A stretch of 64,000 nucleotides of DNA from Phycisphaerae bacterium (lineage in GTDB: Bacteria > Planctomycetota > Phycisphaerae > Phycisphaerales > SM1A02). The stretch spans positions 1 through 64,000 of the forward strand of contig PBAX01000014.1 in NCBI GenBank assembly GCA_002716385.1, written 5' to 3'. The notes below the pieces were generated by a model. It made no database searches. It was given only the letters and a program-made list of their open reading frames with translations, and was not told the DNA's origin. Below are positions 13,768 to 15,842 of this stretch, piece by piece. The position numbers were made by a program, and so were the translations under genes. Numbering within the stretch: position 1 is the stretch's first letter; each line of letters begins with the position of its first letter.

Positions 13768-14790
13768 TTGACCGATACGCAGACAAACCAGCCTGACCAA
13801 GATGATCTTTCGGGACCACTCCTGATTCGAAGTTTCCTCGGCGGCTTTCTCATGGGTCTGGCAAATCTCGTACCGGGGATATCGGGCGGCACGATGCTGC
13901 TGGCGACTGGAATCTACGATCGATTCATCTCGGCTGTATCGCAGGTGACGACTTTCCGATTCAGGCTTCCTTCGATCATTCTGCTAGGCGTGATCGTTAT
14001 TGGAGCCGGCTTCGCCATCATCACCGGAGCCGATGTGCTGGGAACACTGGTCCATGAGAAACGATGGATCATGTTCAGCCTCTTCATCGGCTTGACGCTC
14101 GGTGGGGTGCCGCTGCTGGCAAGCATGATCAAACCATTCAATTCCAGTGCGATCGTCGGTTGTTTCATGGGCATACTGCTCATGGCGATGCTCGCGATGT
14201 TCGATCTGGAAGGTCGTGCCGTCGAGAGTGTGGAAGCCAATTGGATCATGCTTATGATTGCCGGTGCCGCTGGCGGTGCCACCATGGTGCTGCCCGGTGT
14301 CTCCGGAAGCTACATCCTGCTTGTCCTCGGACAGTATCTCGTGATCCTCTCCGCCATCAGCGCCCTGAAGAGCGGAGTCCAGGGTGATGGCGAGATGTCG
14401 GAGGCCATCGCCATCCTGATCCCAGTCGGCATCGGCGCGATCATCGGCGTGGTCGTCGTCTCCAATGTGATGCAGTGGTTCCTGGCCAATGCGAGGAAGG
14501 TCACGCTGGGCGTCCTGATGGGGTTTCTGCTGGGTGCGGTACTGGGCCTTTGGCCATTTCACGCCCCACTTGAGACCGACGTGCTCATGACGGAAATGGG
14601 GCTCACGATCGAGAACATCGAGCAGCTCAAACCTCGGGATTGGCCGGTGGCCCAGTTCGCTCCCTCCAGCCAGCAGTTGCTGGGCGCATTCGGCCTGATC
14701 GTGCTTGGATTCATCATCTCCCTGGGCATCACCATGCTCGGGAAGGAGAAGAAATCCACCCGGTCAGCAGATGCCGCCGAGCTGAGATAG
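13768..14790 (+). CDS. DUF368-family polytopic membrane protein (TTG start)
   Basis: 'FLGGFLMGLANLVPGISGGTMLLATGIYDRFISAV...PGVSGSYILLVLGQY' is DUF368-like. Confidence 0.85.
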   Translation: MTDTQTNQPDQDDLSGPLLIRSFLGGFLMGLANLVPGISGGTMLLATGIYDRFISAVSQVTTFRFRLPSIILLGVIVIGAGFAIITGADVLGTLVHEKRWIMFSLFIGLTLGGVPLLASMIKPFNSSAIVGCFMGILLMAMLAMFDLEGRAVESVEANWIMLMIAGAAGGATMVLPGVSGSYILLVLGQYLVILSAISALKSGVQGDGEMSEAIAILIPVGIGAIIGVVVVSNVMQWFLANARKVTLGVLMGFLLGAVLGLWPFHAPLETDVLMTEMGLTIENIEQLKPRDWPVAQFAPSSQQLLGAFGLIVLGFIISLGITMLGKEKKSTRSADAAELR

Positions 14791-14866
14791 AGGTCCAAAA
14801 AGGGATTTTAACGGCTTTTAAGCAGTCAACTGCGGAATGGCAACACAACTTAAATCGTTGTTTTAA

Positions 14867-14886
14867 GGCCTCTTAGAGCCTTTTTT
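14867..14886 (+). terminator. Rho-independent terminator (DUF368 gene)
   Basis: GGCCTC-TTA-GAGCC followed by TTTTTT. Confidence 0.55.
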
Positions 14887-14937
14887 CGCCTATTTCAGGT
14901 TTAAGACACACCAAACGGGATCTGGCTCGTAGTTGAG

Positions 14938-15045
14938 TATGTCGGGAGGCAATGAATCAACGCCTTCCCGACCCCCCTCCTCTCTCACACTCTCTCCGCT
15001 CTCTCCACCACCGAGCCCGCTCAAACGCGGGCTCGGTGGTTTTTT
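14938..15045 (+). ncRNA. Candidate small RNA unit A: 5' hairpin, C/U-rich linker, terminator
   Basis: Hairpin GTCGGGAGGC...GCCTTCCCGAC (14941-14972), C/U-rich linker, terminator stem CCACCGAGCCCGC/GCGGGCTCGGTGG (15008-15039) + T6. Confidence 0.5.
15008..15045 (+). terminator. Strong rho-independent terminator A
   Basis: 13-bp perfect stem, 6-nt loop, T-run. Confidence 0.85.
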
Positions 15046-15093
15046 GCCCTCCATGGGCCGGCGATGGGAATCAGACGAAATTTTCGCCATGAC

Positions 15094-15245
15094 GTCACAC
15101 ACACGGACATGAAGCGAATAGATGGGGGTGAAGGAAGCACATCTCTCCTGAACTCCATCTCTTCTCTCTCACTTTCTTCACAACTTGATCTCTCTCCTCT
15201 CTCTCCATCACCGAGCCCGCTTCGAAGCGGGCTCGGTGATTTTTT
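15094..15245 (+). ncRNA. Candidate small RNA unit B incl. promoter (GTCACA-N17-AATAGA), C/U-rich body, terminator
   Basis: Shares GTCACACAC...CGNATAGATGGGGGTGAAGGA with unit C at exactly +200 bp; ends in the perfect 34-nt palindrome 15207-15240 + T-run. Confidence 0.6.
15207..15245 (+). terminator. Strong rho-independent terminator B
   Basis: ATCACCGAGCCCGCTTC/GAAGCGGGCTCGGTGAT + T-run. Confidence 0.88.
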
Positions 15246-15293
15246 GTGCCCATGAGAAGCCTGTAGAGCAATTACAGAAAAAACAACCGAACC

Positions 15294-15448
15294 GTCACAC
15301 ACGAGGGCATCAGGCGTATAGATGGGGGTGAAGGATGCAGGATCCTCCTCCAGAACTCCATCACCTGCCTGCGTTCTTCTCAACTCAATCTCTTCTCTCT
15401 CTCCTCCGATCCACGGGCCAGCACAATTGCCGGCCCGTGGGTTTTTTT
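15294..15448 (+). ncRNA. Candidate small RNA unit C incl. promoter (GTCACA-N17-TATAGA), C/U-rich body, terminator
   Basis: Same organisation as unit B at 200-bp offset; terminator CCACGGGCC...GGCCCGTGG (15411-15440) + T7. Confidence 0.6.
15411..15448 (+). terminator. Rho-independent terminator C
   Basis: 9-bp G/C-rich stem followed by GTTTTTTT. Confidence 0.85.
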
Positions 15449-15641
15449 GGGACCTACGTTCAAAGGAATGTGTTGCCGGTTAACTCCGCCCGGGATCAAG
15501 CCGATGCGGTTTTCGGCCCTGGGTACGGCGTGAGGGGCCTTCCATTCCCTCTTTTACGGATTTCGACTCACACCCACGCCCCGACTCCATAGAAGGCAAT
15601 AGATCGCCCTCCTCATTGAACTCCCCAAAGGACTACCCGCC

Positions 15642-15842
15642 ATGACCCTCAAGCGGCTTGCCCTCATCACGACTGCTCTCATGAGCGCCTCATTCGGATT
15701 CGGATGCTCCACTCAGACGAGCACCAATACCGCCAGCGACATGGTCCGATTGGGCGCCATGGATACCAATCGAAACCCATTCGCAATGGGTTCTGGAGAT
15801 GCACTTGGTGCAGCGCTCTACAGACAACATGATCTGAACTGA
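15642..15842 (+). CDS. Small secreted/lipoprotein-like protein, unknown function (66 aa)
   Basis: Signal-like N-terminus MTLKRLALITTALMSASFGFGCSTQ, followed by its own terminator. Confidence 0.55.
   Translation: MTLKRLALITTALMSASFGFGCSTQTSTNTASDMVRLGAMDTNRNPFAMGSGDALGAALYRQHDLN

Follow-up and report, generated by a model that had tools for sequence, protein, structure and literature searches.

The window, by which we mean the whole stretch of 64,000 nucleotides analysed here, contains three consecutive plus-strand units, A, B and C. They lie between a gene for a DUF368/VCA0040-like undecaprenyl-phosphate translocase (13768-14790, plus strand; PF04018, E 5e-44), which serves as the upstream syntenic marker, and the gene of a 66-aa lipoprotein-like protein (15642-15842, plus strand). 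We are highly confident that these units constitute a real, conserved family of small-RNA genes, which is defined by its promoter-like blocks, its structure, two covariance models (R1 and R2) and synteny. The best explanation, which we consider probable, is that they encode co-regulated, Hfq-independent RNAs that act in trans against Shine-Dalgarno (SD) sequences. Literature searches limited to open-licence papers returned no comparable small-RNA family from Planctomycetota.

All parts of the units are read on the plus strand. Unit A (14938-15046, ~108 nt) consists of a 5' hairpin (14941-14972), a C/U linker (14973-15006) and a terminator (15007-15046). The 5' hairpin of unit B (15127-15246, ~119 nt) has a long C/U-rich loop and is followed by a linker (15183-15206) and a terminator (15207-15246); unit C (15327-15447, ~121 nt) repeats the order of 5' hairpin, linker (~15381-15407) and terminator (15408-15447). 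The terminators of A and B were found in the first scan, and that of C, absent there, in a later terminator survey. Sequence and terminators thus confirm the three terminator-ended units of a preliminary description of this region, which had also noted repeats in B and C at an offset of 200 bp. These are recovered by the repeat search (15093-15139 versus 15293-15339, 85% identity over 47 nt, spacing exactly 200), which additionally matches 14990-15046 with 15190-15246 (88% identity over 57 nt, spacing 200). Upstream of unit A, a terminator-like hairpin with a T-run (AAGGCCTCTTAGAGCCTTTTTT, 14866-14887, plus strand; read by eye) closes the DUF368 gene, and a similar GCC-TTTTTT end, also read by eye, precedes unit A in the five relatives within the genus.

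That the units are paralogous small RNAs had been suggested from the letters of a single genome and is now supported by conservation, synteny, compensatory changes and a promoter-like block at fixed spacing. Two to three syntenic units are present in all five other genomes of the genus, and the 14 genus units, when aligned from CACAC, show one layout of CACAC-N18-TAG (TAA in one of them), hairpin, linker and terminator. Unit B has an orthologue in genome G004, with second units in the remaining genomes of the genus, and the G004 orthologue of unit C combines a diverged hairpin with a conserved terminator. Model R1, built from 11 genus units, gives 137 bits for unit A and 122 bits for unit B, scores that are not independent since the model was trained on genus units including these two; its full-length matches in other genera (g5, g8, g52, g53 and g58; 45-74 bits) are independent. 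The units thus recur in relatives throughout the genus and in five further genera. Tandem pairs also occur in g53. Four genera (g1, g52, g53 and g58) preserve the order DUF368 - unit(s) - orf97 - dut, with the restriction that in g52 the stretches read from G112 and G091 matched on the dut side only and that of G063 gave no orf97 match. The copies in g5 and g8 sit elsewhere, adjoining parB or porin-like genes (by eye).

Matches outside the family are weak and mostly comprise linker and terminator only. Those in family f2 (L156, L158, L161, L165, L166 and L169) were not counted, being mostly linker plus terminator and in some cases 3' UTRs; at L156 (132580-132819 of G451:C3, same order), two C/U-plus-terminator stretches lie ~170 bp apart behind a PEP-CTERM-like gene. 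Locus L160 (1501-1649, minus strand; G464, from another family of the class) carries a strikingly similar CGTAGTAGAGGGTGAAG block, after which come a C/U stretch and a hairpin, and is possibly a distant member outside the order. A fourth RNA-like locus of the genome under study (G000:C5:77755-77870, plus strand, equivalent to L128:17755-17870) is composed of a hairpin, a ACTCTCTCCTCTCTCCTCCT linker and a terminator. It is found in five of the six genus genomes (relatives L172-L175) with a nearly invariant linker, its hairpin arms appear to co-vary and it has no CACAC..TAG promoter block; it is probably a dispersed member or an analogue of the unit family.

The predicted folds place an unpaired C/U linker in each unit between a 5' hairpin and a terminator that is perfect or nearly so. 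The fold z-scores against shuffles (A -7.4, B -5.2, C -4.1) are mostly due to the terminators, and B and C without them are not clearly above shuffles (z -0.3 and -1.1). Single-genome fold scores being this weak without terminators, a comparison between genomes was needed. Of the 28 full-length matches, 22 have a 5' stem with 7 bp or more that begins no further than 15 nt from the presumed transcript start, where shuffles of the same stretches would give 6.6 (mean z -1.5), and the stem sequences are wholly different between genera. Across the six orthologues of unit A, both partners of stem pairs 4, 5 and 6 are exchanged (G-C/A-U) and still pair, the one exception being a non-pair cell at pair 6 in G002; these pairs were read by hand, MAFFT having put the 3' arms of the hairpin out of place. 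The terminator stems vary with compensation as well, and their loops vary freely. As initially proposed, no plausible ORF explains the region, the frames not being conserved between orthologues. Small proteins were accordingly rejected, the ATG frames of several units (MGVKEA..., MSGGNE...) being absent, truncated or crossing the terminator in orthologues. Rfam 15 gave no match in the region at the gathering cut-off, its best sub-threshold match reaching 18.5 bits against a cut-off of 47.

Each unit is preceded on the plus strand by a promoter-like block, which reads GACACACC-N15-CGTAGTTGAG at 14904-14937 for A, GTCACACACA...CGAATAGATGGG at 15093-15126 for B and GTCACACACG...CGTATAGATGGG at 15293-15326 for C. 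The block, CACACA-N15-CGTAG or GAATAG, keeps one fixed spacing in A, B, C and the units of other genera, and the motif can be written for the units as CACACA-N15-CGTAGTTGGGGGTGAA. The promoter-like arrangement that the preliminary description saw in B and C therefore stands; its view that A diverges in the 5' part does not, as A has the CACAC...TAG block with the spacing of B and C. A scan for consensus sigma-70 sites found none at the three units, so the promoter would be lineage-specific or of an alternative type. With a matrix for which only units of other genomes served as training set, B, A and C are the three best matches in that order (35.9, 28.3 and 28.2 bits) in 780 kb, that is 28% of the genome, read as stretches (the window plus L117-L136 and L139-L155). 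The next match (C14, complement 215900) appears to run antisense to a coding sequence and was taken for a chance match. It is likely, in our judgement, that the three units have a dedicated promoter in common.

A weaker copy of the motif, CTCACA-N17-TAG at 15565-15597 (plus strand), precedes the lipoprotein-like gene and is also found before its orthologues in G001, G002, G003 and G005; its matrix score of 14.7 bits is inside the range of the control. The lipoprotein-like protein, with the signal sequence ...SASFGFGCS, is syntenic in the genus and gave no Pfam match, and its co-regulation with the units is possible. A small orphan gene on C5 scores 21.6 bits. A vegetative promoter was rejected, since apart from the three units the 780 kb have a convincing motif only before the lipoprotein-like gene and before one small gene of C5. 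With a motif this rare in the genome, control by a single alternative sigma factor or activator is probable; the motif may serve protein genes too, and it looks like the mark of a small regulon under such a dedicated factor. Apparently orthologous orphan genes of ~65 aa stand behind this promoter-like motif at G000:C5:129038-129068 (L131) and G005:C30:429535 (L064); they start with MKMYLLRNGSLALDLNRRSNGC... and have no Pfam match. In G100 (g5), two CATAGATGGGGGTGAAG copies (L017:1500-1545 and L017:1948-1975), with CACA 19 nt before TAG by eye, stand upstream of a similar lipoprotein-like gene and of a STAS-domain-like gene.

SD-like motifs are in use in this genome, with an enrichment ahead of gene starts. 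AGGAG is found at -22 to -4 of 37 of 362 genes, compared with 9 of 362 upstream. In the 780 kb of G000, a GGAG SD precedes 52 of 125 predicted signal-peptide genes (42%) and 97 of the 474 others (20%; p 4e-6), exported genes being called by a simple signal-peptide heuristic and gene starts by a simple rule that adds noise; the difference is absent in a control window. With GGAG twice as common in predicted exported-protein genes, even a generic anti-SD RNA would be a selective regulator. In the target prediction, which had been envisaged early on, pairing of the linker is stronger with start regions (TIR) than with flanking windows, and the window gene at 20542-18020, with the leader aagagagatcATG, is among the best predicted targets. 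Pairing with start regions is, however, equally good for the real linker and its reversed form, and nearly the same exported-protein bias follows from the reversed linker, from poly-CU and from plain CCUCC anti-SD, so that specific target prediction was rejected as non-specific. Selection of the units for those mRNAs in particular is hence not supported. Nor is there an excess of GGAGAG among SDs of the GGAG type. These results agree with a generic anti-SD blocker that has a bias towards exported proteins built in, and show no selected target set.

The linker itself is nearly free of G, up to 40 nt long and mostly unpaired in the predicted folds, and would thus offer an accessible anti-SD sequence. 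CUCUCC occurs in 28 of 28 linkers (7.0 in shuffles of their own letters) and UCCUCUC in 23 (2.8 in shuffles), whereas UUUU is found in none (9.3) and UUCC in three (20.3), figures that are partly selection-biased because R1, which was used to collect distant units, contains a C/U consensus. Half of the set (14 of 28) are syntenic units of the genus, 11 of which built R1; these 14, at one syntenic place, show the same linker pattern. To judge from such counts, the linker is an ordered CUCUCC tract, more than plain pyrimidines. Its sequence is of low complexity and drifts between genera with the composition kept. A C/U tract as a generic feature of terminators in this genome was rejected, since among 39 strong terminators of the 780 kb the three units rank first to third for C/U in the 30 nt upstream; among random 30-mers, 80% C/U occurs with a frequency of 0.0006.

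We propose on these grounds that A, B and C are separate genes for small RNAs of a common family and that each would be transcribed from its own promoter of non-sigma-70-consensus type. The RNA would consist of a 5' hairpin, an open linker of CUCUCC repeats and an intrinsic terminator. Pairing of the open linker with GGAG/GAGAG SDs (CUCUCC complements GGAGAG) would block translation initiation on mRNAs led by strong purine-rich SDs, while the 5' hairpin and the terminator would shield the ends of the RNA and hold the linker open. Since strong SDs are concentrated in exported-protein genes, induction of the RNAs would chiefly reduce the output of envelope and secreted proteins, comparable to the action of LhrC on the mRNA of a cell-wall protein, and this without Hfq. 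We offer this envelope-biased outcome only tentatively, as an inference from SD usage, and consider it rather doubtful.

The same linker could alternatively serve to titrate an RNA-binding protein, such that the units would act as sponges of a 90-aa RRM protein, or of S1, Rho or a cold-shock protein. Hfq was not detected in the six genomes of the genus that were searched, in which positive controls were detected, and each of them encodes one RRM protein (90 aa here, L137:1495-1767), which resembles cyanobacterial Rbp proteins. In eukaryotes, CUCUCU is bound by RRM proteins of the PTB type, and a long, nearly G-free tract of repeated CUCUC that drifts in sequence and keeps its composition would suit such a function. 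However, the recurrent CC ending (CUCUCC in place of CUCUCU or UCUU) and the scarcity of UUCC, CCUU and UUUU are better explained by complementarity to GGAGAG than by a loose polypyrimidine tract, and each RNA holds one tract only. We therefore regard titration as unlikely, though as the most serious competitor of the anti-SD reading.

The RRM protein could also act together with anti-SD RNAs, as their chaperone in place of Hfq. This idea draws on a genus without Hfq in which the RNAs are accompanied by one RRM protein in every genome; co-occurrence in six close genomes is, however, no association test, and it may be that the whole order has RRM proteins, which makes such a role improbable at present. 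Equally improbable is the widest form of the proposal, a class-wide system of Phycisphaerae, independent of Hfq, in which tandem C/U RNAs under an alternative-sigma promoter (core CGTAGTAGAGGGTGAAG, as far as L160) and with an RRM chaperone would silence the SD-dependent translation of exported proteins. If it were true, genes without an SD would go on being translated and SD usage itself would sort genes into the regulon.

Two further explanations do without a trans-acting RNA, and we consider both highly improbable. The units could be serial leader or attenuator elements acting in cis on the lipoprotein-like gene, which in the genus follows them after 195 nt on the same strand, but three successive strong terminators with no evident anti-terminator would have to be passed, the gene has its own promoter-like motif, and the units of other genera stand before orf97-dut or adjoin parB or porin-like genes. 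Mere terminators with a C/U spacer, reached by transcription from the DUF368 gene, would resemble the f2 matches in which C/U tract and terminator directly follow a coding sequence (L156, L158 and L166), but C/U tracts are not general to terminators in this genome, the promoter-like block and the 5' stem are conserved along with the terminators, and, so far as read-in can be tested here, the terminator-like sequence at 14866-14887 parts DUF368 from promoter A in the window and in relatives (by eye).

Considered as anti-SD RNAs, the units are closest in architecture to the csRNAs of streptococci and to LhrC, neither of which needs Hfq, and closest in their C/U motif to the alpha-r14 or cuckoo RNAs. 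The CiaRH-dependent csRNAs occur as several similar RNAs per genome, with two stem-loops, an unpaired anti-SD region and own promoters under one regulator (PMC3091779), in organisms without Hfq (PMC4132741). The plan of two stem-loops with an unpaired anti-SD region is shared by the genus units and by most of the 28 matches. The linkers of csRNAs add an anti-AUG (CAU), a conserved nonamer and dependence on CiaR, whereas the units, from another phylum, have CUCUCC repeats and the block CACACA-N15-CGTAG, and no conserved CAU was seen by eye in their linkers. LhrC1-5 of Listeria monocytogenes are multicopy RNAs of 111-114 nt whose C/U-rich sites block the SD without need of Hfq; they are induced by envelope stress and act on cell-wall protein mRNA (PMC4132741). 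Their copies are almost identical and carry three redundant UCCC sites, in two loops (one that of the terminator) and a single-stranded stretch, unlike the units, whose hairpins are divergent and whose C/U motif is conserved only in the one long linker.

The preliminary description had likened the units to CcsR/cuckoo RNAs, and this holds for the C/U-rich anti-SD motif. In alpha-r14, CCUCCUCCC lies in the unpaired regions of three hairpins, with variable stems and a C/U motif that is kept (PMC10746234), while the units have two hairpins and the motif in the linker. CcsR1-4 are tandem C/U-rich anti-SD RNAs cut by RNase E from one precursor that includes a DUF1127 gene and ends in one terminator (PMC10253847). 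Here, by contrast, a promoter-like block and a terminator come with every unit, and the neighbours are DUF368, lipoprotein-like, orf97 and dut genes, with no DUF1127 gene among them. Since the defining features of these RNAs are thus only partly shared, and with no homology claimed, the units are filed as a new family that would work like csRNAs and LhrC.
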